A stretch of 64,000 nucleotides of DNA from Siphonodentalium dalli (lineage: Eukaryota > Mollusca > Scaphopoda > Gadilida > Siphonodentaliidae). The translations under genes and the position numbers were made by a program. The notes beneath the pieces were generated by a model, which worked only from the letters and a program-made list of their open reading frames with translations, had not been told where the DNA came from and searched no databases. The stretch is from NCBI GenBank assembly GCA_032622095.1, contig CP136062.1:151584875-151648874 (forward strand), written 5' to 3'. Positions 4,259-62,224 of the stretch are shown here, piece by piece (position 1 is the stretch's first letter; the number at the start of each line of letters is the position of its first letter).

Positions 4259-4406
4259 CTATTTAACTCGTTGCCATGGTTTTTTATCCACGCCCCTGTG
4301 ATCTGGTATGTGCTTGTAATGACATTTGTCTGCAAACTGACAGCCAGTCGTTCTCCAGAAATAGCACTCATCGCCGTTCACTGGGCCAGTCGCTTTTGGC
4401 AAGTTT
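4259..4406 (-). CDS. TTC31: Exon 22, terminal (CCCH zinc finger and stop)
   Basis: 148 nt ending in TAG. Codes for NLPKATGPVNGDE then CYFWRTTGCQFADKCHYKH, an exact C-x7-C-x5-C-x3-H finger typical of RNA-binding CCCH proteins, and ends KKPWQRVK. Acceptor tcttcag. Confidence 0.94.
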
Positions 4407-7400
4407 CTGAAGAGAAAAATGAAGAGAATAACTTTCAATTTATCAAGAAAATTGAAATGGACCAAAGAAGTCAAAACATATTTAGATTTAAAGGTACTCA
4501 ATCCGATCAGAGGGTCCCCATCTCAACAGATTCCAACAACAACAATCCGATCAGAGGGTCCTATATTACTATTTCTTTGGCTTTTAGGGTACAAAATATT
4601 TGATTCGAGTCGAGGAACCCATCAAACAAAGCTCAGAGTTATTAGATATTGATTTTTGAAATTTGTTATTTTCTCGAGATGAGTTCTAATAATTTCCTTC
4701 AACTTCGTAATATGCTCGAGATGTGTACACCAAAACACTATTCAAACAGACAAGAATGGATAACTCTAAAATCAAGTGGTAATAATAACGCAATTTTGAC
4801 TGTGTTCTGGGCCAGAAAGTATTCCCGATAATGAAAAATAATAGATTTCTAAAATCGATATCTAAAAAAATCTTAGCTTTGATGGGTGGCTTCCTCGACT
4901 CGAATCAAATATTTTTGACCCACGAAGCCATTGAAATAGTAATTGAGAGGAGTTTTATCGGATTGAGTACCTTTAAGCACATTTTCTTGTGTTAACCCTT
5001 TCTATTCTAAATGGATTGTCCAATTCAGCTGTAAAAGTATACATTGGAACAGTCTATTATTCATTTGAAGGTGTGTTGTGAAAGATCCATATACCCAATA
5101 TGAATGGAATTGGTTGACATTTGTTAAACTTTTCACACTTCCTGTCATAAAAATAGACAAACTAAGGCCGATGGGGTCATTGTCACAAGGCTCCGGTCAC
5201 ATTCGTAGCCAGCTTTTTAAATCGATCACAAATGTAGCCAGCTTTTCGCCGGCGATCACATTCGTAGCCAGCTTTTCAAATTCCATGCTTTATATGGCGC
5301 GAAATATGACGTCATCGCGTTCGTTACTAAAATATCGACGTCATGCTCGAAAACTGACTTCGTTTATCAACTTATATTGGAATATAATTCGAGCATCTAA
5401 CGACATTGATCGGAAACCTCAGGTTATTAGGTGAACTAATATTAAATTAAAATTTATGTTGATTTTCATTCATCAACTCAGAAAAATGAGACTAACATAA
5501 TCTTGTTCATTGAAGCTCGCATGAATATGAAAAGCTGGCTACAAATGTGATCGCCGTAGAAAAGCTGGCTACATTTGTGATCGATTTAAAAAGCTGGCTA
5601 CGAATGTGACCGGAGCCTTGTGACAATGACCCCATCAGCCAAACTAAGGGCCGTAAATTCTGGTAAAATAAATGCGACAAACCTGTTTTTCAAACTCGAT
5701 CGTGATATGGTTGTGAAAGGTCCACATATGAAATAAGAATGCAAACGGTTGACATTTGTTCACGTTTTTGCACCAACAGTCATAAAATTGCTAAAAATAG
5801 ACAAACTAAAGGCCATAACTCAGGTAAAAAGGATCGGACAAATCTGGTTTTTGAACTCGTTGAGATATTGTTGTCCATATACCAAATATGAATGAAATTG
5901 GTTGACGTTTGTTCATGTTATCTCATTAATGAACATAAAAATTGTATAAATAGAAACAAGTGGCATAACTCTGGTTAGAAGGTTGGGGCGGACCCAATTT
6001 TCTGTGTACAGCTGTCACACATGACAATTAACTAACATACCAAAAAATGGCAGAATCTATCAATAAACGGCTATGTTATATAGGTTTGTTGCTGCCCGCC
6101 GGGACACCCACCCCCAACCGTCCTTCGCCATACAAATAGTCAAGTATTGATGACTAAAATGGTACCTCTCCAATGTTTATTTTTAGAACTCAACGGGAGA
6201 GCATTATAAGGTGACAGATATTGTGTGGTTATGACTGCAACTGCCTTTCTGGATGGGCACTAGATCATGCCATGAATCTCTACTCTGGTTAAACCCATAC
6301 CTTACTAGTATTTAAATTCAAGCAGTACTATTTTTCGCTCATTCTTGAATTCGCGCACTTTAAATTCACGCACCTAACTGACAAAATTAATTTTGAAAAA
6401 GTCTTGGGTCTACATGAGGACAGTTTCAGTTCTTTAGTTGTTCTGAAGATATATGTATATATTAAACATGATCTGTAGATCATAACTGAATCAGTGAGAG
6501 CTTTCCGATGAATGGCAACAAGCCATATTTCTGACTAAATCCTGAAAAATTACCCATAATTCTGCTGTGGTTAAGGAGTCGATTATTTAGGGCATTACTG
6601 TACGCCCATGGTAATTTCAAAAATGGGCCATAACTCAGGTGAAAATTGGCCGGCGGAACTCCAATTTGAATTTGATCAGTATTTTTTGGCTAGTAAACTC
6701 ACATACCACATTTCATTCCATTCAATTCAGACTTACTAAAGTTATCATCCAGAAATGAAAATTAAATGCAAATTCCAACAAAAAGGGCCGTAACTCGGGT
6801 GAAAATTGGCCGACGGAACCCAAATTCGTCCTTAAACTGTATTTTGTGCAAGTAAACCGGGACCCACATGCCAAATTTCAGTCCATTCAGTTCAGATTTA
6901 CTAAAGTTATTATCTGGAAGCGAAGGGACGGAGAGATGGACAGATGGCGAGACCAATAACATAATAAATCGTTTTTTTTCAACGTTCCCAAGTTTTGTTC
7001 TGGTAGAGTATGATCTCTACACGCGTAGCCAGAGTACAGATTCATGGCATGATGTAGATGGGCACTAACAGAATAATAGTTTGTTTTCCAACATAAAATA
7101 AATAATTCTAACTGTAGAAGCTCTTCTCGTTCTCTTTCTCGTTCTTTTTCTCTCTCCTTTTCCTTTTCTTTTTCTATTTTCTCCTTTTCTTTCTCTTTTT
7201 TGGCCTTATCTTGTTTGGTTGTTGGCAAGGTTGTGTTGGAAGTTTTTCGTAATGTGGTGACGCCATTTAGACCCTCAGTGATAGGATTATCAGGAAATTT
7301 TACTAACAGCCTCTGACCTCCGCATTCATGAGACTGAAAAGCAATATATATATAAACATAAATATAATGAATTTTACTAGCAGATTTTGACCTCGGCAAC

Positions 7401-10400
7401 TGAAAAGCAATATATATATAAACATAAAACATAAATAGAATGAATACTTAGATCGTCTATTTCTTCCAGGCCACAATTACAACAACAACAACATAATTTT
7501 AATAAAACCTTATTTCAAGACTACAAATACTCTTAGTTTCTGCGTCTAATATTTTGGTGTGTCCCACTTTCACTTCTGTTACATGCTGAGGTGTGGGCAC
7601 AAAGATTGTTTCCTCTTTTGTTGAATTATGTGTGTTGTCCCATATAAAAGGTAATCTGGGAACCCAAAGAAATGCCATGTTTTTCTTTGGTATAAATCTG
7701 AGTATCACACTAATCCTGGATGCTTGGGTATATTTCTAATCAATTTCCAATCTGTTTTTACATGATACCTGTGTAACCTGTGATATTTCTGCAACCTGTT
7801 TAGGTGTTAAAGTCCTACCACTTTGAGAACACTTAATAAGCTTTTAAACTCAAGTTTCCAAAAAAGATTTTTGTTAACTGTGGGCTTTTGTATTGAAATA
7901 GGTATAAAACAGTCACCACAACACCCGAAAGTAACTCATTTATACCACATGGCTGCACAGCAGACTAGCATCACCAAATTCACCCTCTGGGGACCTCATT
8001 CTGCTTAAGCCTCATCTTATGGAAAGTACCTATAGTCTCAAATTAACATTTTTTAATTTACTTTTTCCCTTCTGTTCAGTTTCTATATCCCCTAATTTGC
8101 AGAAGATGAAATGCATAATCGAGGTGCACAATGGGTGAACATCACTAACTTCAACTGGAGAACTTCAATCTGATCCTAGGTCTCCCATAGCAGTTGAGGA
8201 CTAAGCAGAATGAGATTCTCAGATGGTGAATTTGGTGACACTAGCCAGCCGTGTGGGATAGCTTCACTAAATTCACCCTTCTCTCGGTAAAAACCAATCG
8301 ATTCATTGAGCTTCGGTTCCACATGGTTTATAATTTATAATTAATGATAATTGTCAACTAACTGAGATTTGATTTGCACTAAAACAATGCAATGCAAAAC
8401 TTCACATGTCTATATTGAAAGAGGAACTATTTTGTTTAGCAGCAGATAAAACTTCTACAAGTTTAGAAGTAACTTCTCTTTGTTCTCAACGGTCAGCCGA
8501 GTTAGTCAGTTTTATTTCGCACCCACCTTCCCACCCATTATTTTTGCTTCAGTTATTAAGAGTGGATATCCTTTCAGAACATTTTGATAACAGCTATGCT
8601 TAGTGTGTGTTTCAGGGTGTGCTTAGTGTGTGTTTCAGTGTGTGCTTAGTGTGTGTTTCAGGGTGTGCTTAGTGTGTGTGTTTCAGTGTGTGCTTAGTGT
8701 GTGTTTCAGTGTGTGTGCTTAGTGTGTGTTTCAGTGTGTGCTTAGTGTGTGTTTCAGTGTGTGCTTAGTGTGTGTTTCAGTGTGTGCTTAGTGTGTGTTT
8801 CAGGGTGTGCTTAGTGTGTGTTTCAGTGTGTGCTTAGTGTGTGTTTCATGGTGTGCTTAGTGTGTGTTTCAGTGTGTGCTTAGTGTGTTTCAGTGTGTGC
8901 TTAGTGTGTGTTTCAGTGTGTGCTTAGTGTGTGTTTCAGTGTGTGTTTCAGTGTGTGCTTAGTGTGTGTTTCAGTGTGTGCTTATTGTGTGTTTCACGGT
9001 GTGCTTAGTGTGTGTTTCAGGGTGTGCTTATTGTGTGTTTCATGGTGTGTGTTTCAGGGTGTGCTTAGTGTGTGTTTCAGTGTGTGCTTAGTGTGTGTTT
9101 CAGGGTGTGCTTATTGTGTGTTTCATGGTGTGCTTAGTGTGTGTTTCAGGGTGTGCTTAGTGTGTTTCAGTGTGTGCTTAGTGTGTGTTTCAGGGTGTGC
9201 TTAGTGTGTGTTTCAGTGTGTGCTTAGTGTGTGTTTCAGTGTGTGCTTAGGTTGTGTTTCAGTGTGTGCTTAGTGTGTGTTTCAGGGTGTGCTTAGTGTG
9301 TGTTTCGGTGTGTGCTTAATGTGTGTTTCAGTGTGTGCTTAGTGTGTTTCAGTGTGTGCTTAGTGTGTGTTTCAGTGTGTGCTTAGTGTGTGTTTCAGTG
9401 TGTGCTTAGTGTGTGTTTCAGGGTGTGCTTAGTGTGTGTTTCAGGGTGTGCTTAGTGTGTGTTTCAGTGTGTGCTTAGTGTGTGTTTCATGGTGTGCTTA
9501 GTGTGTGTTTCAGTGTGTGCTTAGTGTGTGTTTCAGTGTGTGCTTAGTGTGTGTTTCAGGGTGTGCTTCGTGTGTGTTTCAGTGTGTGCTTAGTGTGTGT
9601 TTCAGGGTGTGCTTAGTGTGTGTTTCAGGGTGTGCTTAGTGTGTGTTTCAGTGTGTGCTTAGTGTGTGTTTCAGTGTGTGCTTAGTTTGTGTTTCAGGGT
9701 GTGCTTAGTGTGTGTTTCAGTGTGTGCTTAGTGTGTGTTTCATGGTGTGCTTAGTGTGTGTTTCAGTGTGTGCTTAGTGTGTGTTTCAGGGTGTGCTTAG
9801 TGTGTGTTTCAGGGTGTGCTTAGTGTGTGTTTCAGTGTGTGCTTCAGTGTGTGCTTAGTGTGTGTTTCATTGTGTGCTTAGTGTGTGTTTCAGGGTGTGC
9901 TTAGTGTGTGTTTCAGTGTGTGCTTATTGTGTGTTTCGGGGTGTGCTTAGTGTGTGTTTCAGGGTGTGCTTAGTGTGTGTTTAGTGTGTGTTTCAGGGTG
10001 TGCTTAGTGTGTGCTTAGTGTGCTTTTCAGTGTGTGCTTAGTGTGTGTTTCAGGGTGTGCTTAGTGTGTTTCAGTGTGTGCTTAGTGTGTGTTTCAATGT
10101 GTGACACATCAGGATCATCTGGCAAGACTCTTTCCCTTTACGTCTTGATTTCTTATGGTTGGCACTTTGGTGGAACTAAAAAAGGGGCTTCATCAATAAT
10201 AAGAAAGTTGAAGTTCCATGCATGCTTCATTATTATTCAACAGAATGATTTACCTGTATTAAACACATCAGTAACTCAACAAAAACAACATGCTCTATTT
10301 ATTAGACAGAATGATTTACCTGTATTAATTAATTAATGATTTACCTGTATTAATTAATGAATTACCTGTAGACTAGTCATAGCCTTCCAGGCAGATTATA

Positions 10401-55400: not shown

Positions 55401-58400
55401 CGCGCCATCCGTGCTCGCAGGGTTGGTCAGAAACAAATGTTTTTTAAATTTAATGTATGTTCCGTATATCTCTCTGCAGATGCAAATAACGTTGAATGGC
55501 AAACAGACGCTCTTTATAGAGATGCGTCAAAAACAAACGATCATTAAATAATCACTTGATTAACCCACGCCGTGCCTTTGCGGTGATTTGAGATTGGAGA
55601 ACGGGTGCTCTGAGCTTCTCTAAACCGCGACCACGGTCGTGTCGGTGGGATTTGACACTTACATAGGAAGTTTGAGCTCAATCTGTACACGCGTTTTGGA
55701 TTCTATGAAGTACACACACACAGATATACGAAGTCTCAAAATATATAGTATAGATAGACTAGCCGATGAGCCCGACGTTGTCCGGGCTATTCAAAAACCA
55801 AATTTCAAGTTGAAAGCTCTACCCGTTTCCGAGATCTGGTCTGCGCATGCGCGAAGCAGGTGTCGCACGGGCTCGGCGACCCGATAAAATTCGTATCCGG
55901 GGCAAGATACATTCACATACCAAATTTCAAGTCGATAGCTCCACCCGTTTCCGAGATCTGGTCTGCGCGAAGCTGGCGCCGCACGGGCTCGGCAACCCGA
56001 TAAAATTTGTATCCAGGGCAAGATACATTCACATAGCAAATTTCAATTCGATAGCTCCACCCGTTTCCGGGATCTCGTCTGCGCATGCGCGAAGCGGGCG
56101 CCGCACGGGCTCGCCAATACGACGTTGACGACCGCCTGGTCAAACTACACACACGTACCAAGTTTCGTCCCGATCGGTCGAGAATCGTAGATTTGTATAA
56201 ATGACAGACAAACATACAGACAGACAGAGGTCTTCAAAATATATATGAAACTAGCATGTTAGCCCGCCACTTGTGTGGTTGGTCAGAAACATGACATTAT
56301 TTTGTTTTTATTTATTTATTTTTTTTGAATTTTTTAATATTAATTTAATGTTTTTTTAAATTTAATTAATTATTTTTAATTTTTTTTAATTTTAAATTGT
56401 TTTAATTAATTTTTTAAATGAATTTTTTGTTTCTGGCAGAAAAATTGACCCGATGAAATCCCCTCCCCCCTCCTAGGAATGACAGACAATGCATTGTTTG
56501 TTTTTCAATGAGAAAATTCATGGTACCCGTCCTAAACATCCCCGTTCCTAGATTAGTCCCCGAATTGACCCGATGAAATCCCCCCTTCCTAGGAACGACA
56601 GACAACGCATTGTTTGTTTTTCAATGAGTTAATTCATGGTACCCGTCTCCCCGAAAAGAGCGGACAGTCAATTAATCACATCGTGAAATCTCTCTGCATA
56701 ATATTTCGAGCGATAGCGTTGCGTTGAATTGTAAACAAACGCTGCTTAGATCAATTCTGCCTTTTTAATCGAGATAATTGCATTTCGTCGCGCATCCGTA
56801 TTTCGGATGGATGGGGTCAGTCGTTTAGCCACGTCCCTTGCAATAAAGAGCGTTAATCCTTAACACCTACAAATACGGTCAATATAAAGATCGTTGATGC
56901 CTTAACCCCCGAAGTGACGTTTGCGGTGATTTTGATGATTGGGAAGGGAGAAGAGGTGCTCTGAGCTTCTCCAAAACGCGACCACTACGGTGTCCGTGGG
57001 ATTTTACACTTATATACGAAATTTGAGCTCAATCTGTACACGCGTTTTCGATTCTATGAAGTACCCACATACACACACATATATATACGGAAGTCTCAAA
57101 TTATATTCATGGTACCCGTCCTAAACATCCCCGTTCCTAGATTAGTCCCCGAATTGACACGATGAAATCCCCCCTTCCTAGGAACGACAGACTAACGCAT
57201 TGTTTGTTTTTCAATGAGTTAATTCATGGTACCTGTCTCCCCGAAAAGAGCGGACAGTCAATTAATCCCGTCGTGAAATCTCTCTGCATAATATTTCGAG
57301 CGATAGCATTGCGTTGAATTGTAAACAAACGCTGCTTAGATCAATTCTGCCGTTTTAATCGAGATAATTGCATTTCGTCGCGCATCCTTATTTCGGACGC
57401 ATGGGGTCAGTCGTTTAGCCACGTCCATTGCAATAAAGAGCGTTAATCCTTAACATCTCCGAATATGGTCAATATAAAGATCGTTGATGACTTAACCCCC
57501 GAAGTGGCGTTTGCGGTGATTTTGATGATTGGGAAGGGAGAAGAGGTGCTCTGAGCTTCTCCAAAACGCGGCCACTACGGTGTCCGTGGGATTTTACATT
57601 TATATACGAAATTTGAGCTCAATCTGTACACGCGTTTTCATTTCTATGAAGTACCCACATACACACACATATATATACGGAAGTCTCAAATTATATAGTA
57701 GATTAAATGAGTGTATATGCATATTAACAAAGTTCGCTATACATTTTCTGACTATTACTAGACAAGAGAAGGTATCATAATAAATTCTTACTGTGGCTCA
57801 ATTGGTCATTGTCGGATGGTATCATATAAAAAGACACCCAGGATATCTCAAACGTGCAAAAAAGACACCCAGGATCTCCAAATGTGCAAAAAGTCACCAA
57901 GCATATCGATATCTCATCAAAAACGCAATATTAGATTAGTCGTCTGCTTATTATTATTATATTAAGTATTGGATGTGCCTGACTTGACTAATGTTACAAT
58001 ACTCACTATTTGTTGAAGACTTGGAAAAGAAGACATCTTTGAAGAGTTTCAGTGTTCCTTCCTGATGAGAGAAGAATACAAAAATAATATTCAGGCCTCA
58101 ATATATGGTGCTGGACATTTGAAGAATGAGGTCCCCAGAGGGTGAATTTAGTGATATGGGCTAGCGTCACATAATTAATTCTCTGAGGAGCCTTTCGTGG
58201 CGGGAGCTGTGCAGGTGCAGCATTAAAGTTCCTGTCTCCAATAGGAAGCCTCGGGTATATATAATAATGCACTGGCTTAGAAAGTCAATGTAAATAATGT
58301 ATTCTCTTATTTTCTTATTAGGCTCCCTATGGGAGATTCGCATATATAAGAGAATGCATTGGCACAGGGTTTCGCGACATTTCAGGAGGCTCCAGTCATG

Positions 58401-61400
58401 GAAGGGTTAAGTTACGAGATAATAATTAATAATGCATATCATTTATATAGCGCTTAATCCCTGGTGTAGCTCTAAGCGCTCACATTATTACCCCAGCTGT
58501 TTTTTATGAGTAATGCCGAGTCTTGTGCCTGCTGCCATTTTACAGGCGCTTCACTAGAGCGGCTTACGGATACCCAACAACCAGGTACCTATTTCGCATC
58601 TAGGTACGACGAAGCGAGCACAGTACAAGTGACCTTGCCCAAGGGTCACAACCTGGCGCGAGATTTGAAACAGCTTGTGGCTATATATAGCACACACACC
58701 GCTCAATTCGGCCAAGCCACTGTTGTGGACACAATAGTCCACCGAGCGAGGCGCGAAATCACGCCGGTGCATTAACACCATTACAAGTCCGACACTCTAC
58801 CCACTGGGCTACCACATCCATGGTGAAGATGGTAAGGTGCACCCATTGGGCACCTTGATTATGCATTGTGCTGTCTGCCAATTTCGGAATATATAGAAAC
58901 AAAACTGAAAAAGAAACTTTCTAAAGTAGTTCCTAAAGAAATGCATGTGCGGCTTGTGCGCATATACAAAGAACTGCCGATAATATGATAATCAAACCTA
59001 AAATAGTATTTGACTGTGGCAGTGCCATCTACTAGGTTACGTTCTGCGAGAAGTCTCTGTATAAATGACGTAACCACAATTAATTGGTGTTGATTGGGTA
59101 ACATTTAGAACATATCGTGTAAAAACTCAACTCAAGACACCCGCTGACTATAGAATAAAATTAATAAATTTCTGCCATCTGTAAAATATTTTTATTCCCA
59201 TCAGATCATGTTAGACAGTGAAAGTTGGCATACAGTAATGCCCTAATTAATCGACTCCTTTAACCACATCAGAATTATGGGTAACTTTTCAGGATTTAGT
59301 CGGAAATATGGCTTGTTGCCATTCATCGGAAAACTCTCGGGGAGAGCTTTCCGATGAATGGCAACAAGCCATATTTCCGACTAAATCCTGAAAAGTTACC
59401 CATAATTCTGCTGTGGTTAAGGGAGTCGAATAATTAGGGCATTACTGTATTTTAGTTGAGTAACATGTTTTATTCCAGAGTGATGTCCATTTCCATTGGT
59501 ACTCACACCCCACACTTGGCATTTTGGTAAAGTTCTTGTTATTACTTCAGGCTAAACAAATCCCTCAAATACTGGAAATTTGAATACAGTCCCCCTTTAA
59601 AGGACCTGAAAAAAAATAGTACTCACATAGGACATCTCGCTGAGAGATCCACTTGTCAGCTTTTTATAAGCTTTACTGATGATCTGAAATTTCTGAAAGT
59701 AAAAAAGTAAATCGAAATTGAATAATATGATACAGGGACCAGTTCAAATTGGGAGCAGTCACTTCTCCCTGTTTGGTTATTAGGGAGAAGTAGACTGTAA
59801 TCAAAGTCACCCTTATACTGCTTATAGTATCATGCAATACAAGAGCCAATTTATAAAACCATTATAGTGAGTAACAACACCATTATAATCAGTAATTATA
59901 CTTAAAATATACTCAACATTAATGCTGTTGGGACATATGCATACTGGTATATGGGAGAATTCACTTCTCCCTAGGATCAAAATAGAGAGAAGTGGCACAA
60001 TTTAGGGAGAAGCTGTCCACCAAGTCGCCCTCTAGTCTGGACCCTGTCCCACAAGACGCCCTCAAAAATCTGTTTAATTTTATGAGAAAAACCACCCTCC
60101 ACAATGCTTATTCAGGTCTACACGTTTTTAAAAATTGAATGCTCTGTTCTAAATTTGATTAACAAATGCTTTACAAATAGTTTAATTATAAGAAAATGTG
60201 GATTTTTCATTTGAGATGTTGCGCACACGGGGCATGTCGACAACGATGGTCATATTTTCCTGTGCATGTAAGAATTTTAAGCATGTCAATTGTGAAAAAT
60301 TACTTTATACTCAAGTCTACAAAAATAATAGTTCCAAGTTATTTCTAGCAAATATTGAAAAATTTCCATCTTCCACATGATATCGACTTTTCTGTTAGAA
60401 TTGTTATGTTTCAACCACACACTTCTATTCCGTATTGCACTATTTTAGTATTATTACATTTTTCAGAAATTTCCGTCCTGCACTTCTCTTCCACCCTGCA
60501 CTTCTATTTGGCACACATGAGTCAAGTCTGAGGTTAATGTGCCTGTCGTTTGCAGAATCAGGTCCCTAGAGGGTGAATTTAGTGATGTTTTCCCACACAG
60601 CAGGCTAGCATCACCAAATTTACCCTCTGGGGACCTCATTCTGCATGGCCTCATATGCTATGGAGACATAGACTCAGATTGAAGTTCCCAAATGGTGAAT
60701 ATTGTGCTGTACACCCATTGGGAACCTTGATTATGCAATGTGTTGTCTGCCAATTGGGGATATAGAGTAACTAAACTATAAAAAGAAATAGAATCTATGT
60801 GAAGAAATTTCTATAGAAATTTGATAATAAAGAAATTTCCTTAGAAGATGAGGTCTGAGCAGAATGAGGTCCCCAGATGGTGAATTTAGTGGTGCTAGCC
60901 CTCTATGCAGGATAGCGTCACTAAATTCACCCTTTGGGGACCTCATTCTGCAAATGACAGGCACACTAAACTCTGGAGTACTCATGTCTAGAGGTCAGGG
61001 TTCATGCTCACCTCATGTCTAGAGGTCAGGGTTCACGCTCACCTCATGTCTAGAGGTCAGGGTTCAGATGGCCAGAAAAGTTTATTCACAAATTTTTTGG
61101 CCATTTTTGAATTTGTTTAGCCATTCTTCAAAAACTTTGATCAAATTTAGTATCCAAGAATGTGTGCTTATTGAGAAACCGAAACTAAACAAAACTATTT
61201 AACACTTGCATAAACAAACTGATACACAAGTTCCAGCAATTTTGGCCAACCTGGGAGTGGGTACTGTACTTCAAATCTGTGCTGAGCCATTATATTTGGC
61301 ATAGGTCGCATCAAGCATGTTTTATTTTAGACAGAAATGTTAGGTTTCATCAAATGTCTGTACTTTAGCTTCTTCGTACAATTTGTCAAGCATTATGTCC

Positions 61401-62224
61401 CTTGGTTTGCACATACAAAACATTTAATTTTACAGATTTGTTTACTCAAATTGACCATTTTCAACACAAAAACAGACCACGACAGGACGGGAGAATCCAT
61501 TAAGTAAAGAAAGTGTTAGACTGACCTTCTTAGCTTCAGCAGATTCACTGTGCTGCTCAGGATGCCACTTCAGTGCTAACCTCTTGTAGCTCTTTATTAC
61601 GGCATTATTGTTTGAATCTGAAAATAAAATGGATGAACTTTAAGTGTCTGACATTTGCAGAATGAGGTCCTCAGAGGGTGAATTTAACGACGCTATCCCG
61701 CACACCAGGCTAGCATCACCAAATTCACACTCTGAGAACCTCATTCTGGCATTTAGATCAGGAAATTGTATACTTTTATGAGATAACAATTTACCATCAT
61801 GTGCCCAATACAGTAATGCCCTAATTAATCGACTGCTTAACCACAGCAGAATTATGGGTAACTTTTCAGGATTTAGTCGGAAATATGGCTTGTTGCCATT
61901 CATCGGAAAGCTCTCGGCGGTTAAGGAGTCGATTAATTAGAGCATTACTGTACTTCATTAAGAACCAAGGAGAAGTGGAATTCCGAATCTAAGCTTATTC
62001 TCGGAATAATTAACATTCAACTAACGTAAACATGCAAACTTACCATGTTGTTCAAAGCATATCATTTTGTCATGCAGATGAATCGTGCTGTGCACTGACA
62101 TAGCAATATTTGAATAGACTAGAACATCTCGGACAATAGACCGATCGGATTGAGATGGTCTAGAGACAGGATAATCCAAACAAAATGTACACATCAAGTT
62201 TGTCTCATTTGGGTGAATGGTATT
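4259..62224 (-). CDS. TTC31: TTC31-like J/TPR/UBA/RRM/CCCH multidomain protein, 22 exons, 5' incomplete
   Basis: Gene-level entry; exons are listed separately. Twenty-two minus-strand exons (2031 coding nt including the stop, 676 residues) join with exact phase agreement and GT-AG boundaries. Domains by visible residue: Cys pair 12-15, J-like helix II/HPE/helix III about 61-110, acidic Asp/Ser/Glu run 139-151, Lys/Glu coil 182-215, TPR units about 306-412, UBA-like 415-451, RRM about 498-570 (RNP2 LWVGNV, RNP1 KYCAFINF), charged coil 597-627, CCCH finger C642-C650-C656-H660. The TPR block (GNRSYCYDR, LSPDWPKGYFRKGRAL), the Lys/Glu coil and FDPTSAFF resemble vertebrate TTC31 as I remember it; a J-like domain, UBA, RRM and zinc finger in the same protein are seen here, and their presence in other TTC31 proteins is not something I can confirm. 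Likely an RNA-binding adaptor using TPR/UBA contacts (inference). The initiator ATG and promoter were not found and probably lie beyond 64000. The TTC31 name is moderately sure; the gene model is very sure. Confidence 0.9.
4488..4976. mobile_element. TTTAAAGGTACTCAATCCGAT inverted-repeat element (family F)
   Basis: Ends TAAAGGTACTCAATCCGATC and ATCGGATTGAGTACCTTTA are complementary. Interior blocks (ATTTCTTTGGCTT, TTCGAGTCGAGGAACC) recur at 38808-39248 and in degraded form at 31790-32890. Confidence 0.72.
5078..5960 (+). repeat. Degenerate ~170-bp tandem repeat, interrupted
   Basis: Units share ATATACCAAATATGAATG, GGTTGACATTTGTT and AAAATAGACAAACTAA with spacing near 170 bp. The inverted-repeat element 5170-5635 sits inside. 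Clearly related to the array at 41195-42005. Confidence 0.65.
5170..5635. mobile_element. Long-TIR element with internal CGTAGCCAGC repeats
   Basis: Ends GATGGGGTCATTGTCACAAG and complement; TIRs run about 110 bp. Each arm carries three direct copies of the ~30-bp unit with ATTCGTAGCCAGCTTTT and GATCACA. Long TIRs with tandem subunits resemble Mutator-like or foldback elements; an exact target duplication was not identified. Confidence 0.7.
6491..6600. mobile_element. Family A MITE, right arm only
   Basis: Contains one arm of the foldback element from GAGAGCTTTCCGATGAATGG to the terminal GGGCATTACTG/TA. The left arm is absent. Confidence 0.8.
6603..6960 (+). repeat. Two diverged ~180-bp monomers with GGACGGA tail
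   Basis: Both units hold GGCCRTAACTCRGGTGAAAA and a CAAATTTCA...CATTCAATTCAGA block; the second ends in a GACGGAGAGATGGACAGATGG tail. Same architecture as 15320-16200 and 25735-26440. Confidence 0.55.
7113..7333 (-). CDS. TTC31: Exon 21 (end of RRM and Lys/Glu/Arg coil)
   Basis: 221 nt, phase 0 in. Begins SHECGGQRLLVKFPDNPI (last RRM strand), continues TEGLNGVTTLRKTSN and a run of KEKEKEK/REREREE coil to ELL. The donor chosen is gttaga, a weak GT donor, because it gives CA plus A (Gln) and the exact frame of exon 22. Without splicing the frame stays open to 6887. Confidence 0.86.
7962..8285. mobile_element. Family B hAT-type MITE, long form, truncated
   Basis: Holds the inward-facing modules AATTCACCCTCTGGGGACCT and GAATTTGGTGACACTAGCC plus the internal block CAGTTTCTATATCCCCTAAT. 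Neither outer CAAGCCTTGAAATAG end is intact. Confidence 0.7.
8596..10105. repeat. 23-bp G/T-rich minisatellite, ~65 copies
   Basis: Unit GTGTGCTTAGTGTGTGTTTCA with copy variants (AGTG, AGGG, ATGG at the end of the unit). The plus strand is nearly free of C and A apart from fixed positions, so the Cys/Val-rich open frames across it are artefacts. Lies in intron 20. Confidence 0.95.
10240..10686 (-). repeat. ~30-bp AT-rich minisatellite carrying exon 20 splice-donor copies
   Basis: On the gene strand each unit reads ATTAATTAATACAGGTAAAT with variants, about 15 units, directly adjoining the real exon 20 donor CTACAG/GTAAAT. At 10363-10400 a diverged copy of the last 30-odd bases of exon 20 itself is embedded. 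Confidence 0.88.
10687..10789 (-). CDS. TTC31: Exon 20 (RRM, second half, RNP1)
   Basis: 103 nt coding for FGTVTSVRCLPEKYCAFINF then KTKESAGKAMTSLQ. KYCAFINF is RNP1 (the usual Gly/Phe positions are Tyr/Cys, the two downstream Phe kept). Acceptor ttcacag. The donor CTACAG/gtaaat is reiterated many times in the adjoining minisatellite. Confidence 0.95.
10825..10957. mobile_element. Family B hAT-type MITE, short form
   Basis: Inverted repeat with CAGAATGAGGTCACCAGAGG and CTCTGGGGACCTCATTCTG arms and outer remnants of the CAAGCCTTGAAATAG end. It begins about 35 bases upstream of the exon 20 acceptor. Confidence 0.8.
11188..12581. mobile_element. TTAA-type MITE (family D) split by a hAT element
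   Basis: Outer ends TTAACCATTTAATGATGG and CCAGAAGGGTTAA with TTAA at 11184-11187 and 12582-12585 (piggyBac-like target). The interior is interrupted at GTGCCAGT by the element at 11240-12394. Confidence 0.8.
11240..12394. mobile_element. hAT element, TIR TAGTGATGAGCCGAT
   Basis: 1155 bp; exact 8-bp target duplication GTGCCAGT (11232-11239, 12395-12402). Ends TAGTGATGAGCCGAT and its complement. Both ends are packed with ATCGG motifs. No transposase frame; non-autonomous. Confidence 0.93.
12585..12960 (+). repeat. 31-bp minisatellite, ~12 copies
   Basis: Unit GCGCGGATAGCTAAATTAAC plus ACTGAAAGTAT, very homogeneous, with C/T change at the CpG in a few units. Begins right at the end of the TTAA MITE and ends about 65 bp before exon 19. 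Confidence 0.95.
13024..13113 (-). CDS. TTC31: Exon 19 (RRM, first half)
   Basis: 90 nt coding for PRNPDGLTALWVGNVLPDIK then EKQLVQLFS. LWVGNV is RNP2, with helix 1 following. Acceptor atttcag, donor gtatga. Confidence 0.95.
13417..13636. mobile_element. Family C MITE core, twin palindromes
   Basis: ACCCTGTGCCAATGCATTCT to the complementary GGCACAGGGT end. Two ~67-bp palindromes (GCATTCTCTTATATATGC arms) in opposite orientation are separated by an AT-rich spacer. Lacks the outer CCCTTTACCCAACA ends. Confidence 0.8.
13677..13866. mobile_element. Foldback MITE
   Basis: Arms of about 55 bp: AATATATAATAAACACAATA and TATTGTCTATTTATTATATA, with GTTAACTATTCTGAGTAGAG opposite CTACTCAGAACAGTTATC. 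No coding capacity. Confidence 0.7.
14017..14610. mobile_element. hAT element, TIR CAGTGTTCACACTGG
   Basis: 594 bp; exact 8-bp target duplication GCGAGGAC (14009-14016, 14611-14618). The ends match those of 23825-24672. Subterminal ATGGCTAAA motifs near both ends. Sequence outside (TATAGTCTTCAAAC...CTGCCTGCTGA) is present on both sides, an older duplication. Confidence 0.92.
14835..15262 (-). repeat. 60-76 bp tandem repeat, ~6 copies
   Basis: Unit ATGGCAGTCAATGGGTGTAT, AATAGATCATTAGGGAATAA, CAGTGTCTC, with an extra CCACTGATACAGACTGATT block in the central units. Reads open on the minus strand, but this is a repeat artefact. Confidence 0.9.
15320..16200 (+). repeat. Composite element: CCCGGTGCATACCCC head, ~160-bp monomers, GGACGGA tail
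   Basis: Head GGGCTGTTGCCCGGTGCATA, then three units with GTCGGACAGACGTCATAATC and GCAGGTGCACAGGTTCCCAT, then GGACGGACGGA repeats and a CGTTGCGGGGGGTATAAT end. A relative is at 25735-26440. Confidence 0.7.
16539..16653 (-). CDS. TTC31: Exon 18 (linker between UBA and RRM)
   Basis: 115 nt, phase 1 in and phase 2 out, coding for ADQTLNNNDIHMVDEESALH then IQNSPKRQMNKPCDIKM. No domain recognised; it restores the frame between UBA and RRM exons. Acceptor tttgtag, donor gtgagt. Confidence 0.85.
16654..17351. other. Intron 17, no recognisable element
   Basis: AT-rich with scattered homopolymers. A 94-codon minus-strand open frame here has no family resemblance and no phase link to the neighbouring exons. 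Confidence 0.5.
17352..17442 (-). CDS. TTC31: Exon 17 (UBA-like domain)
   Basis: 91 nt coding for EMGFSQKQAEAAIKQFGAVQ then TALDSLLAGV. The MGF loop, Ala-rich helix and C-terminal AxDxLL match UBA domains, which bind ubiquitin. Acceptor tttcag, donor gtacgt. Confidence 0.93.
17468..17667. mobile_element. Family D MITE, degraded
   Basis: Starts TTAACCCTGAGGTTCATGA and carries GTGCCAGTGCATTATCATAT, GGGAGCCTCGCATATATAAG. Begins about 25 bases upstream of the exon 17 acceptor; right end lost. Confidence 0.6.
18035..18270. repeat. GGAGAAGTGAC repeat with 29-bp tandem head, split by a hAT
   Basis: Three tandem units GAGGGCGACTTGGGAGAGG at 18040-18122, then CCAGGGAGAAGTGACATCTC. The same sequence in reverse lies at 59740-60075. 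Related sequence seems to resume after the hAT at 19532-20210. Confidence 0.6.
18276..19531. mobile_element. hAT element, TIR TAGTGCTGGGA
   Basis: 1256 bp; exact 8-bp target duplication CCTTAGGC (18268-18275, 19532-19539). Ends TAGTGCTGGGATGGTT and complement of AACCGTCCCAGCACTA. Both ends hold AACCGGTTAACCG-type motifs. No transposase frame. Confidence 0.93.
19540..20270. other. Intron 16, repeat-derived sequence
   Basis: An open frame of 112 codons at 19679-20017 and the block GGAGAAGTGACTTCTCCCAA (about 20140) are visible. The latter belongs to the repeat at 18035-18270 and 59740-60075. No gene supported. Confidence 0.4.
20545..20649 (-). CDS. TTC31: Exon 16 (TPR 3 end and linker to UBA)
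   Basis: 105 nt, phase 0: LFPDAERSFMQVLKLDKNCE then EAVQELLRVRTFQIT. The last TPR helix B and a capping helix. Acceptor ttccag, donor gtaagc. Confidence 0.93.
20756..21052. mobile_element. Family B hAT-type MITE, long form
   Basis: Ends CAAGCTAACTAATAGTGTG and CACACTATTTGCAAGCTTG around GCAGAATGAGGTCAGCAGAG modules. Flanks GCAAACAG and CAAACGGC are a possible imperfect target duplication. Confidence 0.75.
21233..21624. mobile_element. Family C piggyBac-type MITE, 392 bp
   Basis: Ends CCCTTTACCCAACA and TGTAGGGTAAAGGG, bounded by TTAA on both sides (21229-21232, 21625-21628), the piggyBac target. Interior: two opposed ~67-bp palindromes plus a unique tail with TTGGCCGGTTTTGGCCGG. Confidence 0.9.
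21880..22060 (+). repeat. Tail of the ACTAGCAGG/TTACC repeat family with ACAT microsatellite
   Basis: Has CATACCAAATTTGAGCCGGA, TCGGTCAAGCAGTTTTCGAG, then (ACAT)n at 21978-22002 and AATATATATAATAGACTAGC leading into a new head CAGGGTTACCGGCGTTACCC. Same head-after-tail order as the array at 50541-57700. Confidence 0.65.
22235..22395. mobile_element. Foldback MITE
   Basis: Inverted repeat with GATCTCACATGAGTTTCTAT and ATAGGACGAGTGTGAGATAC ends and AATTTATCAACC opposite GGTTGATAAATT. No coding capacity. Confidence 0.65.
23018..23122. mobile_element. Family D MITE, internally deleted
   Basis: TTTAATCCTTTCATG to GATGGGTTAAA with one remaining GCATATATAAGAGAATGCAT arm. Lies about 30 bases past the exon 15 donor. 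Confidence 0.6.
23155..23245 (-). CDS. TTC31: Exon 15 (TPR 2/3)
   Basis: 91 nt coding for ALKDAEKAISLSPDWPKGYF then RKGRALAGLK; TPR helix B followed by helix A of the next repeat. Acceptor attgcag, donor gtcagt. A TTAA-type MITE ends about 30 bases past the donor. Confidence 0.95.
23690..24760 (+). repeat. ~45-bp TG-rich minisatellite split by a hAT element
   Basis: Units GTGTGTTTGGTATTGTTGGC plus CATGTGATTGTGTGTTTATG lie at 23690-23824 and resume at 24673-24760. The hAT element inserted at TTGCTGGC inside a unit. Confidence 0.8.
23825..24672. mobile_element. hAT element, TIR CAGTGTTCGCGCTG
   Basis: 848 bp; exact 8-bp target duplication TTGCTGGC (23817-23824, 24673-24680). Ends CAGTGTTCGCGCTG and perfect complement. 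Subterminal TTTGGCTAA motif repeated near both ends. No transposase frame. Confidence 0.94.
25073..25190. mobile_element. Family B MITE, short form
   Basis: GCAGAATGAGGTCCCCAGAT and complementary AACCTATGGGAACCTAATTC around a CAGTGGGCTAGC centre. Outer ends eroded. Confidence 0.6.
25469..25519 (-). CDS. TTC31: Exon 14 (TPR 2, helix A)
   Basis: 51 nt coding for R-FFGNRSYCYDRTQMYE-K(part). The GNRSxCY motif is typical of the second TPR in this family. Acceptor tttttag, donor gtgagt. It was found by phase and by the 17 residues missing between exons 13 and 15. Confidence 0.92.
25735..26440 (+). repeat. CCGGTGCATACCCC element with ~160-bp monomers and GGACGGA tail
   Basis: Two heads (TCTGGTGCATAACCCCTTGT, ATCCGGTGCATACCCCCTTG), then units with CATACCAAATTTCATTGAGA, then GATGGATGGACGGATG and a CCCCTTTTTTTTAAAAGGGG end. 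Relative of 15320-16200. Confidence 0.65.
26703..26793 (-). CDS. TTC31: Exon 13 (TPR 1)
   Basis: 91 nt coding for RGNEMAQLGQYSAAIQLF then SEAIHLDTGDF, a textbook TPR helix A/B pair (GNxxxxxGxYxxAIxxFxxAIxLD). Acceptor attgcag, donor gtgag. Confidence 0.94.
26937..27015. mobile_element. 80-bp stem-loop element
   Basis: GGGTATAGCGCTGTGGCCAT faces ATGGCCACAGCAACATACCC; stem about 24 bp with one bulge. Confidence 0.55.
27284..27510. mobile_element. Family B MITE, left part
   Basis: Intact left end CAAGCCTTGAAATAGTGTCT followed by GCAGAATGAGGTCCCCAGAG and the internal block with TCTATAACCCCCAACTTGC. Right end missing. Confidence 0.7.
27640..29400. repeat. Strongly diverged ~160-bp monomers with CCGTCCGTCTG head
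   Basis: Starts with GTCCGTCGAGCCGTCCGTCC. Units with CTCACCTGTATAGTTTTTGG and TATCGATCGGTTGATCGG recur near 27800, 27960, 28100, 29050 and 29195. In reverse it has the same monomer-plus-GGACGGA-tail plan as 25735-26440. Confidence 0.55.
30209..30257 (-). CDS. TTC31: Exon 12 (entry into the TPR block)
   Basis: 49 nt coding for QSDDLDPVILRSRQLA plus one base of an Ile codon. Acceptor ttccag... gcag-type, donor gtgagt. Continues into the first TPR helix. Confidence 0.86.
30448..30553. mobile_element. 106-bp TTAA-flanked MITE
   Basis: CCCTTAGCTATTTCC to CTGAAAGGG, TTAA on both sides (30444-30447, 30554-30557). The smallest of the TTAA/CCCTT group in the window. Confidence 0.55.
31574..31693 (-). 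CDS. TTC31: Exon 11 (pre-TPR conserved segment)
   Basis: 120 nt, phase 0. Begins DFDPTSAFFVTVVNKKKKNQ, which resembles the LDLxSxFVS motif before the TPR block in TTC31, then a Lys/Asn-rich linker ending TKSNGEE. Acceptor caacag, donor gtaagt. Confidence 0.87.
31790..32890. repeat. Family F element, degraded and with inserted sequence
   Basis: Left end AAAGATACATAATCCGATTT and the block CTTCGGGGGTAAATATATTAG match family F; GGTTAGCATTATTTTTTGGC and GATTCTGATAACT (32760-32830) match the copy at 38808-39248. About 800 bp between them is unfamiliar and holds a 98-codon frame without support. Confidence 0.5.
33389..34660 (+). repeat. 67-bp satellite array, ~19 copies
   Basis: Unit GGGTTAACTTATTATCTGAA, CATTTCCTAAGGGATAACTA, CTCGTCAATGAGTATTTAGT, ATAGAAA. 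Length variants: 68 bp (early units) and 64 bp (GGGAACTAC). Each unit has the small inverted repeat ACTCRT-CA-ATGAGT. Confidence 0.95.
34773..34803 (-). CDS. TTC31: Exon 10 (31-nt microexon)
   Basis: Completes a Lys codon and codes for NTESRSSDEA. Acceptor tttgcag, donor gtaagt; the phase change 2 to 0 matches both neighbours. It lies just upstream, on the plus coordinate, of the 67-bp satellite. Confidence 0.8.
34931..36310. other. Intron 9 region, repeat-like, unassigned
   Basis: Motifs AATTCGCGCACTTT and TTTAAATTC recur at 35400-35480, 35860 and, elsewhere, 6310-6400. Minus-strand frames at 35052-35487 include a CGKSLLFLCQNCLK stretch that could be a decayed retroelement, but no family could be assigned. 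Confidence 0.35.
36561..36814. mobile_element. Family B hAT-type MITE, complete, nested palindromes
   Basis: 254 bp; ends CAAGCCTTGAAATAG and complement, with an exact 8-bp target duplication CTTCCAAG (36553-36560, 36815-36822). Each half is itself a palindrome (GCAGAATGAGGTTCCCAGAG to its complement), and the two halves mirror each other. Confidence 0.94.
36908..37299. mobile_element. Family C piggyBac-type MITE, 392 bp, reverse orientation
   Basis: Ends CCCTTTACCCAACA and TGTTGGGTAAAGGG with TTAA on both sides (36904-36907, 37300-37303). Same length as 21233-21624, opposite orientation, and highly similar. Confidence 0.92.
37824..38346. repeat. 57-bp direct repeats flanking a family C variant
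   Basis: TTCACAAGCTCTTCAGTGAG...GTGTGTTGCATTCT occurs at 37825-37878 and 38291-38344. Between them lies a core element 37913-38282 with ends ACCCTGTGCCAATGC and complement, whose spacer carries extra sequence (CCCCAGACAAACATGAGC). Confidence 0.75.
38355..38790. mobile_element. Family E inverted-repeat element
   Basis: Ends TTAAAGGCCCACTTAATTTT and AAAATTAAGTGGCCTTTAA are complementary, with CCCAGATCA subterminal on both sides. No coding capacity. Confidence 0.75.
38808..39248. mobile_element. Family F element
   Basis: Interior ATTTCTTTGGCTTCGGGGGT and TTCGAGTCGAGGAACC; right end ATCGGATTGAGTACCTTTAA. It ends about 10 bases from the exon 9 donor. Confidence 0.65.
39258..39325 (-). CDS. TTC31: Exon 9 (Lys-rich linker)
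   Basis: 68 nt coding for DDKKCGKHKNKSAADNIKK then CDK; ends in phase 2. Acceptor atttcag, consensus donor gtaagt. Confidence 0.82.
39360..39714. repeat. Degenerate tandem with CAATATTC..AGTTTCAAAT..CTA blocks
   Basis: Two units around 39530-39690 share GAAGTTTCAAATMTCTA and AACTGTAGGAGGAG/ATTGTAGGAGGAG. Probably part of the same monomer class as 41195-42005. Confidence 0.4.
39715..39759 (+). repeat. 45-nt poly-G tract
   Basis: Forty-four G with a single C at 39740. Could form G-quadruplexes on the plus strand; on the gene strand it is a poly-C run. Could also be an assembly or sequencing artefact. Confidence 0.9.
39900..39985 (+). repeat. Short CCCCCAATAACACACAG tandem
   Basis: Four units with a variable C run. 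The same AATAACACACA phrase reappears at 42019-42090 in two ~52-bp units with ACCACAGCGC. Confidence 0.8.
40145..41045. mobile_element. hAT element, TIR TAGTGTTGAAAC
   Basis: 901 bp; exact 8-bp target duplication TATTGGGC (40137-40144, 41046-41053). Ends TAGTGTTGAAAC and complement; both subterminal regions are dense in CGACTAGTCG/TCGACTAG. No transposase frame. Confidence 0.93.
41195..42005 (+). repeat. ~160-bp tandem array, 5 units
   Basis: Units with ATATTGTTGCAGGAGACTCA, ATACCAAATATTGTTGAAAT, CGGTTAATATTTCATCGAGT, TATCGCGCTAACGGTGATAA and TAGACAAACTAAGACCC. Spacing 158-166 bp. Related to 5078-5960. Confidence 0.88.
42469..42525 (-). CDS. TTC31: Exon 8 (Lys-rich coil)
   Basis: 57 nt, phase 0, coding for RRKEKKKVEKLEGVKEVTL; a likely basic nuclear-localisation patch (inference). 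Acceptor attaacag, donor gtaaag. Confidence 0.82.
42526..43594. other. Intron 7, no recognisable element
   Basis: Several minus-strand frames of 60-107 codons overlap in different frames, none with a known motif. The GCGGCATGC phrases at 43060 and 43440 suggest an unassigned repeat. Confidence 0.4.
44013..45292. mobile_element. hAT element with transposase remnant, TIR CAGACTTGTTTAC
   Basis: 1280 bp; exact 8-bp target duplication CCCTGGTG (44005-44012, 45293-45300). Ends CAGACTTGTTTAC and complement. Left subterminal AAATAGGGAGATT three times, right ATCGGGAG four times. The only hAT here that keeps coding sequence. Confidence 0.94.
44234..44885 (-). pseudogene. Broken hAT-type transposase, C-terminal part
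   Basis: A 133-codon frame (44234-44635) with RTFYQSIVDKMIQKFPFEEH and SKRFGLIQTDEQFDDLADEL resembles the C-terminal region of large hAT-like proteins common in molluscs. Upstream, another frame (about 44735-44880) continues the protein: MNEFNTLFQSDETMLGFMQT then EMERLLRKFLGKFVKKH. The two are separated by stops and a frame change. The N-terminal BED finger and catalytic core are missing. Family placement rests on the enclosing element's 8-bp target duplication. Confidence 0.75.
46441..46518 (-). CDS. TTC31: Exon 7 (Lys/Glu coiled coil)
   Basis: 78 nt, phase 0. Codes for EAKNSEELNEQEKERRKT followed by EKRRAKKK, a highly charged helix like the coil that precedes the TPR block in TTC31. Acceptor ttccag, donor gtaacc. 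Confidence 0.88.
46931..46959 (-). CDS. TTC31: Exon 6 (29-nt microexon)
   Basis: Microexon coding for D-ISSHGSKSE. Short but bounded by tttcag and gtaagt, and it converts phase 1 into phase 0 exactly as its neighbours need. Confidence 0.8.
47078..47236. repeat. 155-bp duplicated block, copy 1
   Basis: GGCCTTTAACAACGGGGTGC to TGATAGACCATTTATCC; repeated at 48721-48873 right after the family E element. Minor differences only. Confidence 0.75.
47306..47604. other. GC-richer island between TTGTCCCCACA and TGTGGGGACAA
   Basis: Complementary 11-bp ends and a more CpG-rich interior (GGCGTCAGGTGACGTCAAAT, CCCGCTGTCAAGGGTGACGG). Might be a small element or a regulatory patch; no gene. Confidence 0.4.
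47605..47960. mobile_element. Family B MITE, long form
   Basis: Ends CAAGCCTCCATATAGTGTGT and ATCTATATCCAGGCTTG around paired CAGAATGAGG modules and the TTTCTATATCCCCTAATTAC core. No intact target duplication. Confidence 0.78.
48258..48732. mobile_element. Family E inverted-repeat element
   Basis: Ends TTAAAGGTTCATTTAATTTT and AAAATTAAGTAGGCCTTTAA. The centre has a second inverted repeat: AATGGAAGGGTAATAACTCT opposite AGAGTTATTCCCCCTCCATT. Confidence 0.75.
48721..48873. repeat. 155-bp duplicated block, copy 2
   Basis: Nearly identical to 47078-47236. It overlaps the right end of the family E element, so the block seems to have moved with that end. Confidence 0.75.
48954..49061 (-). CDS. TTC31: Exon 5 (acidic Ser/Asp/Glu segment)
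   Basis: Phase 1 in and out. Starts TTQNGSYHSSDDDDES, continues DSEDDEEYDIHL and ends NTKNRT. Several Ser residues in an acidic setting are candidate CK2-type sites (inference). Acceptor atttcag, donor gtaagc. Confidence 0.9.
49279..49657. mobile_element. Family C piggyBac-type MITE
   Basis: Ends CCCTTTACCCAACA and TGTTGGGTAAAGGG with TTAA on both sides (49275-49278, 49658-49661). 379 bp, a shorter spacer than the 392-bp copies. Confidence 0.92.
49753..50290. repeat. Tandem duplicate of MITE plus flank
   Basis: The flank AAATTTGGGTATGTTTTTAC and ATTGAGCATTA before the MITE is present at 49216-49276 and again at 49753-49813; the second MITE copy (from 49816) breaks off near 50151. A third, diverged flank copy lies at 50200-50290. 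Confidence 0.82.
50541..57700 (+). repeat. Head-to-tail array of an ACTAGCAGGTTAGCCCGCC repeat family
   Basis: Heads (GACTAGCAGGTTAGCCCGCC, variants) start near 50541, 51364, 52413, 53610, 54420, 55757 and 56250; tails read ACGGAAGTCTCAAAATATAT. From 51364 on, each head follows directly after a tail. Units are 0.5-1.3 kb with shared modules (AAGTTTGAGCTCAATC, AAATTTCAAGTCGATAGC). Open frames recur only because the DNA recurs. Class unknown; Helitron-like or tail-targeting retroelement are options. Confidence 0.8.
51460..52080 (+). repeat. GTTGTTGTTGGCATT tandem inside the array
   Basis: Repeats of CCCGTCCCTAAAAGAG, TCGTTGTTGTTGGCATTCAC and GGCTATATTAACTAATGGTA in higher-order blocks of about 150-230 bp. 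Confidence 0.85.
57828..57905 (+). repeat. ~34-bp tandem, 3 units
   Basis: AAAAAGACACCCAGGATATC plus TCAAACGTGC, the third unit diverged. About 100 bp from the exon 4 donor. Confidence 0.75.
58007..58061 (-). CDS. TTC31: Exon 4 (linker after the J-like domain)
   Basis: Codes for EGTLKLFKDVFFSKSSTN and the first base of a Thr codon completed by exon 5. Acceptor tcatcag, donor gtgagt. No domain recognised. The following intron, about 8.9 kb, is the longest in the visible gene. Confidence 0.85.
58190..58409. mobile_element. Family D TTAA-type MITE
   Basis: CCTTTCGTGGCGGGAGC to CAGTCATGGAAGGGTTAA, with GCATATATAAGAGAATGCAT and GCACAGGGTTTCG inside. Left end partly eroded. Confidence 0.65.
58417..58820 (-). 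mobile_element. tRNA-derived SINE
   Basis: On the minus strand the head reads GGTAGCCCAGTGGGTAGAGT (Pol III A box TAGCCCAGTGGG), followed about 45 nt later by a weak B box (GTGATTTCGCGCC). The 3' part forms a hairpin AGCGCTTA...TAAGCGCT and ends in an ATTAATTATTAT tail. About 400 bp. Resembles V-SINE-like elements described in molluscs, which I cannot confirm here. Confidence 0.78.
59233..59447. mobile_element. Foldback MITE, Tc1/mariner type (family A)
   Basis: Complete copy: CAGTAATGCCCTAATTAATC to GGGCATTACTG with TA on both sides; arms about 100 bp, almost perfect. Confidence 0.9.
59627..59683 (-). CDS. TTC31: Exon 3 (J-like domain, helix III)
   Basis: A 57 nt phase-0 exon coding for IISKAYKKLTSGSLSEMSY, the helix III part of a J-domain (compare the family pattern I-x-x-A-Y-x-x-L-s). 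Acceptor atttcag, donor gtgagt. Confidence 0.9.
59740..60075. repeat. GGAGAAGTGAC repeat, reverse copy
   Basis: Shares GCTGTTGGGACATATGCATA, GAATTCACTTCTCCCT and AAGTCGCCCTCTAGTC with 18035-18270 in the opposite orientation. Confidence 0.6.
60530..60974. mobile_element. Family B MITE, long form
   Basis: Left GTGCCTGTCGTTTGCAGAAT and right ATTCTGCAAATGACAGGCAC with paired modules and the ACACCCATTGGGAACCTTGA core. Outermost ends eroded. Confidence 0.78.
60979..61070 (+). repeat. ~32-bp tandem, 3 units
   Basis: CTCATGTCTAGAGGTCAGGG plus TTCACGCTCAC three times. Immediately followed by AGATGGCCAGAAAAG, possibly the start of a degraded TTTGGCTAA-type hAT. Confidence 0.88.
61526..61617 (-). CDS. 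TTC31: Exon 2 (J-like domain, helix II and HPE loop)
   Basis: Phase 1 in, phase 0 out. Codes for AVIKSYKRLALKWHPEQ, matching J-domain helix II and the start of the loop, but the invariant Asp of HPD is Glu. Acceptor ttttcag, donor gtcagt. A palindromic MITE begins about 15 bases upstream of the acceptor. Confidence 0.92.
61630..61746. mobile_element. Family B MITE, short form
   Basis: GTGTCTGACATTTGCAGAAT and AGAACCTCATTCTGGCATTT around the GACGCTATCCCGCAC centre. About 12 bases upstream of the exon 2 acceptor. Confidence 0.75.
61811..61950. mobile_element. Family A MITE with one arm deleted
   Basis: TA-flanked, complete left arm up to CATCGGAAAGCTCTCGG, then directly the outer part of the right arm (GGTTAAGGAGTCGATTAATT). 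The deletion destroys the hairpin. Confidence 0.85.
62044..62224 (-). CDS. TTC31: Exon 1 visible (Cys-pair region before the J-like domain)
   Basis: Codes for residues 1-60 plus the first base of codon 61. The donor is a strong gtaagt after GAACAACATG. The acceptor is taken as CTCAAG before AATACC, which follows a T-rich stretch but sits beside a dispersed repeat (ACAGGGTGGAA family, 62240-62300), so this 5' boundary is the least certain in the model. Contains MCTFC (possible metal-binding Cys pair) and an amphipathic segment ending ICFEQH. No initiator methionine with good context is present, so at least one more upstream exon is expected. Confidence 0.72.

Follow-up and report, generated by a model that had tools for sequence, protein, structure and literature searches.

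A TTC31-family relative in the scaphopod Siphonodentalium dalli with predicted J-like, TPR, UBA-like, RRM and CCCH parts, possibly an RNA-tethered Hsp70/Hsp90 co-chaperone

Several described proteins combine some of the parts that we discuss here. RBM22 is a splicing factor that combines an RRM with a CCCH finger and is not known to contain a J, TPR or UBA domain, and proteins of the DNAJC17/Cwc23 type unite a J domain with an RRM and are not known to carry TPR, UBA or CCCH parts. A J domain and TPRs occur together in DnaJC7 and DnaJC3, with the TPRs placed N-terminal to the J domain; DnaJC7 acts on Hsc70 with both, and the contact of its TPRs with the EEVD tail of Hsc70 is essential for the J-domain interaction, according to the section of PMC13254874 that deals with it. 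Human TTC31 (519 residues) has a coiled coil at 147-197, three TPRs at 305-406 and long disordered regions, and the excerpted text of PMC7279152 names only the coiled coil, the three TPRs and the disordered tails. An excerpt of PMC3817404 calls TTC31 uncharacterised and reports a centrosome phenotype after its knock-down.

Judged from its sequence, the protein encoded at the locus we investigated is a relative of the TTC31 family, with an architecture unlike that of human TTC31. The locus lies in a 64,000-nucleotide stretch of a Siphonodentalium dalli contig, to which we refer as the window. The predicted order of parts is a J-like module, a disordered segment that is first acidic and then rich in Lys/Glu, three TPRs, a UBA-like part, an RRM and a CCCH finger. 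In human TTC31 (Q49AM3), too, a Lys/Glu-rich coil precedes three TPRs. The J-like module differs from the J domains of DnaJC7 and DnaJC3 in carrying HPE and in preceding the TPRs, and RNA-binding parts lie further downstream. We see about an even chance that this is one gene for a TTC31-family RNA-tethered Hsp70/Hsp90 co-chaperone, a gene that probably begins beyond the window.

The gene finder that we used combines splice weight matrices, codon scores measured against the window's own composition and phase-aware chaining on both strands; its weights were set from general knowledge and are untrained. From its output and by reading, we kept a chain of 21 exons that runs on the minus strand from 61617 to 4259 and encodes 618 residues and a stop codon, with no internal stops. 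Phases agree at all 20 junctions, the exons measure 29-221 nt, and the introns range from 412 to 8945 nt (mean 2775). All 21 acceptors are AG and score at least 1.4; all 20 donors are GT, and 18 of them score at least 0.8, the two poor ones being those at 13024 (-0.1) and 7113 (-2.3). Base composition did not help in calling coding sequence (GC 0.383 in the exons versus 0.371 in the window). The strict automatic chain has 26 exons, 17 of them identical to the kept model and nine discarded because we judged them spurious (e.g., those at 55663, 54774, 54631, 52765, 50994 and 11443). Four of the 21 kept exons stand outside the strict chain (20545-20649, 13024-13113, 7113-7333 with respect to its 3' end, and 4259-4406); two were placed through a relaxed run, 4259 through the gene-finder output and 7113 by reading. 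An initial annotation had described 22 exons without phase conflict and 676 residues. The absence of conflict stands for 21 exons, but the first exon, 62044-62224, is unsupported; including it would give 679 residues and a stop.

With the whole 618 residues as query, Pfam reports DnaJ, TPR and RRM, each above its cut-off, and UBA and CCCH, which fall below theirs, are absent at E up to 0.01; the profiles thus bear out three of the five parts named in the initial annotation. At the same E limit, ten other open frames of the window match no Pfam family. There is good support for a real gene on the minus strand, with a core that begins at the acidic segment and reaches the RRM. Two further pieces, the J-like module and the CCCH exon, probably belong to the same gene, each through one unproved junction. 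Together, phases, Pfam matches and the comparison with human TTC31 favour the earlier proposal of one gene with J-like, TPR, UBA-like, RRM and CCCH parts.

Phases and motifs might also arise by chance if one chooses among many weak exons, and the modest splice scores and the four exons placed outside the strict chain would fit such an origin. However, the best single-gene score in the strict run was 124.2 on the minus strand, a score that belongs to the automatic 26-exon chain and not to the kept model, and 12.7 on the plus strand, whereas 100 second-order Markov surrogates evaluated with the same score reached 27.2 at most (median 1.5). The Pfam E-values, from 1e-11 to 1e-17, also speak against chance. 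A phase-blind pick of non-overlapping internal exons scoring at least 9 yielded 15 on the minus and two on the plus strand, and 30 surrogate runs contained 0.9 such exon candidates on average and five at most, overlaps counted. One of the 15 (36662-36781) was removed as repeat-derived before the phase test. The remaining 14 form 13 neighbouring pairs, and phases agree in 11 of them (binomial 2e-4 for p=1/3, 8e-4 for p=0.38); in the two mismatched pairs the phase is restored by intervening exons, 58007-58061 and 46931-46959. We hold a chance origin to be extremely improbable, and for the core of the gene it is already refuted.

The introns contain many repeats. The candidate exon 36662-36781 is phase-compatible, yet lies inside an eight-copy repeat family (D7), and was rejected. 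D7 is about 120 nt long, occurs at 36580-36802 and seven other places, and has an open frame with splice-like ends; its copy at 36662-36781 could be exonised. Three long intronic minisatellites were observed, at 8597-10103 (23 nt unit, 66 copies), 33392-34660 (67 nt unit, 19 copies) and 12583-12961 (31 nt unit, 12 copies), and the longest intron (49.1-58.0 kb) is dense in direct repeats of families D4, D9, D11, D12, D14, D15 and D16. An intronic open frame on the minus strand (44234-44641, about 135 residues) has a good coding score and no Pfam match at E up to 0.01; our guess is that it is possibly the remnant of a mobile element.

Three exons encode the J-like module: 61526-61617 with helix II and the HPE loop (phase 2 in and 0 out, acceptor 3.4, donor 3.1), 59627-59692 with helix III, identified by Pfam DnaJ and splice scores, and 58007-58061 with the end of the module, placed by phase only. 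The DnaJ match to the joined exons (5.8e-11; 42.8 bits versus a cut-off of 27.8) covers profile positions 13-55 of 63, and a PDB search with the J part and an E limit of 0.01 returned 31 sequences, mostly J proteins, with DNAJB8 as the best (1e-7) and Cwc23 (5y88, 0.0052) among them. The motif is HPE and not HPD, and for this reason we call the module J-like. HPE is described as the seemingly sole tolerated replacement of HPD, with E. coli DjlB and DjlC, which serve a diverged Hsp70, as examples (PMC13254874, a 2026 review, in its part on this motif).

The DnaJ match starts at profile position 13, and helix I of the J domain is missing from the model. Of the 105 GT sites upstream in the window, two have a helix I-like motif, and both are unusable as donors, with scores near -4. 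Eight upstream exon candidates have a donor of at least 0, and six of these were scanned against DnaJ. The former first exon 62044-62224 is weak, the DnaJ score being 42.0 bits with it and 42.8 without. A candidate at 63678-63708 gave the best DnaJ score (45.7 bits), but its donor scores 0.2 and visual inspection places it in a local duplication, and we rejected it. Because helix I has no usable candidate upstream, the gene probably starts outside the window, and the protein is probably a partial one.

The 3' border of the J-like module invites another explanation, namely that the locus holds two genes, a J-protein gene at 61.6-58.0 kb and a TTC31-like TPR-UBA-RRM-CCCH gene that begins at 49 kb. 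The longest intron, 8945 nt and filled with repeats, separates the J exons from all others, the join to the acidic segment (phase 2 to phase 2) is spanned by no domain, and the J-like part has no counterpart in human TTC31 (score 29, a value that 164 of 500 shuffles attained). This intron also contains 29 poly(A)-like hexamers, though such hexamers are uninformative, being present in all five inter-module introns examined and once downstream of the stop codon. Against two genes, exon 58007-58061 ends in a donor and is compatible in phase with the exon that follows, and the gap offers no convincing terminal or initial exon, the candidates scoring above 5 being short and located in repeat-rich sequence. 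We consider two genes unlikely and keep the J-like module in the single-gene model.

The core of the gene begins with an acidic Asp/Glu/Ser-rich segment (48954-49061; 14.6 in the phase-blind scan), followed by a 29 nt linker from the strict chain (46931-46959; phases 2/0), a Lys/Glu/Arg-rich coil alignable to the one that precedes the TPRs in TTC31 (46441-46518; score 16.0) and its Lys/Glu-rich continuation (42469-42525). A basic linker (39258-39325), a linker of 31 nt (34773-34803), a linker 5' of the TPRs (31574-31693) and the start of TPR 1 (30209-30257) come next. The last five of these exons were recovered by splice sites and phase as well as by the phase-blind scan, and for 42469-42525 the TTC31 alignment is added. 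TPR 1 continues in 26703-26793, TPR 2 with the clamp Asn equivalent to HOP N43 is encoded by 25469-25519, TPR 2/3 with the equivalents of HOP K73 and R77 by 23155-23245, and TPR 3 with the next helix by 20545-20649. Pfam, splice sites and phase agree on the last three, and the phase-blind scan also finds the first two of them, 20545-20649 appearing in the relaxed chain only. Across the joined region the TPR_2 profile matches above its cut-off (8.4e-17).

In a PDB search the best match of the TPRs is STIP1/HOP (2.1e-38), and other co-chaperones are matched too. The TPR region is identical to HOP TPR1 at 39 of 103 positions and keeps four of the five residues of the carboxylate clamp (N12, N43, K73 and R77 in the numbering of HOP TPR1), while K8 is replaced by Ala. 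This replacement, the dissimilarity of the other domains and the higher score of TTC31 set the protein apart from HOP/STIP1 and other co-chaperones with clamp-type TPRs. The sequence that we take to be human TTC31 (Q49AM3) agrees with the excerpted PMC7279152 on two landmarks, the length of 519 and the position of REERP, 281. BLASTP against this reference finds 43 of 98 residues identical (91.3 bits), and Smith-Waterman alignment of the TPRs to the same sequence scores 216 with 44 of 104 identical, versus 185 for HOP TPR1, 187 for HOP TPR2B, 130 for RPAP3 TPR1, 146 for RPAP3 TPR2 and 125 for SPAG1. TTC31 is therefore the closest among the six TPR references compared, and its margin over the 125-187 of the five TPR domains from HOP, RPAP3 and SPAG1 upholds the TTC31-like TPR core noted in the initial annotation.

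The similarity to TTC31 extends to the pre-TPR Lys/Glu-rich coil, whose score of 104, in low-complexity sequence, was reached by none of 500 shuffles. Exon 31574-31693 alone shows no similarity to TTC31 beyond that of shuffles (165 of 500), and the part after the TPRs has no counterpart in human TTC31 (472 of 500). The doubt, voiced earlier, that other TTC31 proteins share all these domains is borne out for the human one, which shows neither J nor post-TPR similarity, and the excerpt of PMC7279152 agrees. Among viral contigs we found no relative, and the ten pattern-matching stretches of genome contigs include none; animals are absent from both collections, so that the searches have no bearing on orthologues. 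One open-access library yielded no paper on such a combination of domains, and the architecture may have been published elsewhere.

Exon 17352-17442 encodes a Met-Gly-Phe loop and a putative UBA fold that remains below the Pfam cut-offs for UBA (15.4 bits versus 22.4, E 0.018) and UBA_7 (16.6 versus 27, E 0.0075), and we therefore label it UBA-like. With an E limit of 1 it matches four PDB sequences, all of them Dsk2 UBA, and these matches are weak (0.14 to 0.30). The candidate UBA and CCCH assignments are both drawn from motifs together with sub-threshold scores. A linker exon (16539-16653), recovered by splice sites, phase and the phase-blind scan, leads to the RRM.

The RRM is distributed over three exons, 13024-13113 (beta1 and helix 1), 10687-10789 (the centre, on which Pfam, splice sites, phase and the phase-blind scan agree) and 7113-7333 (beta4/beta5 and a Lys/Glu repeat linker). 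Joined, they match RRM_1 at 2.4e-14 (53.4 bits versus a cut-off of 20.7) over positions 1-69 of 70; the RRM and J matches both span exon junctions. The PDB search with the RRM returned 47 sequences, including poly(A)-binding protein, TIA-1 and RBM22 (8ro0, 4.5e-7), whose domain order differs from the one described here. The last exon, 4259-4406, ends with the stop codon at 4259-4261 and contains, as read from the translation, the spacing C-x7-C-x5-C-x3-H. The finger stays below the cut-offs of zf-CCCH_3 (18.8 bits versus 31, 0.0019) and zf-CCCH (11.7 versus 20.5), and its three PDB matches, all C3H1 proteins, are weak (0.38 to 0.93).

How the RRM and CCCH exons are joined is uncertain, and so is the 3' end of exon 7113-7333. 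To keep its frame, the last exon must follow a donor with two leftover bases; the one at 7113 (ACA|gttaga) is a poor candidate, and the next one, at 7308, would cut the RRM. If the donor at 7113 is not used, the open frame of the RRM exon reaches a stop at 6887-6889. The protein might end there, after the RRM and the Lys/Glu repeat, with the CCCH exon part of an alternative transcript or of another gene, and the lack of a good donor 3' of the RRM and the preference of the automatic chain for reading through to 6887 point in this direction. However, the strong acceptor of the terminal exon (5.4) calls for upstream exons, the intervening candidates that could bridge to it are weak (best 7.4), and the tail past 7113 looks repeat-like by eye. 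We regard the exclusion of the CCCH exon as improbable and retain it as the last exon of the gene. A 6-nt tandem repeat at 7124-7198 codes for the Lys/Glu/Arg stretch that links RRM and CCCH, and the length of this linker may for this reason differ between individuals.

The role that we infer for this protein is that of an adaptor of the co-chaperone type. Its carboxylate clamp would let the TPRs grip the EEVD tail at the C-terminus of Hsp70 or Hsp90, after which the J-like domain with its HPE would engage Hsp70 or at least touch it. The UBA-like domain may recognise ubiquitin or a partner that resembles it, and RRM and CCCH finger may tether the complex to RNA. The result would be chaperone action on RNA-protein particles or on aggregation-prone RNA-binding proteins, which would connect protein quality control with RNA. 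The tolerance of HPE and the dependence of the DnaJC7 J-domain interaction on its TPR contact speak for this role. Because clamp, HPE J-like module and RRM/CCCH are combined, an RNA-tethered Hsp70/Hsp90 adaptor would be the most economical reading. Counting against it are the Ala at clamp position K8, the failure to find helix I in the window, the fact that HPE is known from E. coli proteins with a diverged Hsp70 partner, the sub-threshold UBA-like and CCCH parts, the poor donor between RRM and CCCH and the low complexity of the pre-TPR match.

The centrosome phenotype of human TTC31 lends no support to a chaperone or RNA role, and one could take the gene for an orthologue of TTC31 that serves mainly, as was seen for the human protein, in centrosome duplication and chromosome stability, with J, UBA-like, RRM and CCCH modules that are secondary or decayed. 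TTC31 is indeed the closest of the TPR references, and the knock-down phenotype was seen in HCT116 and HeLa cells (PMC3817404, excerpt). However, the RRM and the J-like module are well conserved in sequence, which argues against decay, and the excerpted PMC3817404 offers no molecular mechanism. We give a main role at the centrosome little credence next to that of an RNA-tethered adaptor.

A wider proposal, which we put forward tentatively and with some doubt, is that TTC31 derives from a five-module co-chaperone with Hsp70/Hsp90 and ubiquitin contacts and an RRM-CCCH RNA tether, and that the human form is a stripped remnant that retains the coil and the TPRs. If this were the case, the invertebrate gene would allow the original purpose of the TTC31 family, the chaperoning of RNA-protein particles, to be tested. 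The protein would also be an animal J-like protein with HPE, a variant that the consulted part of PMC13254874 describes from E. coli DjlB and DjlC. For a family whose human member has been called uncharacterised, a relative that unites chaperone- and RNA-binding parts with a UBA-like one would provide a concrete hypothesis for its original role.
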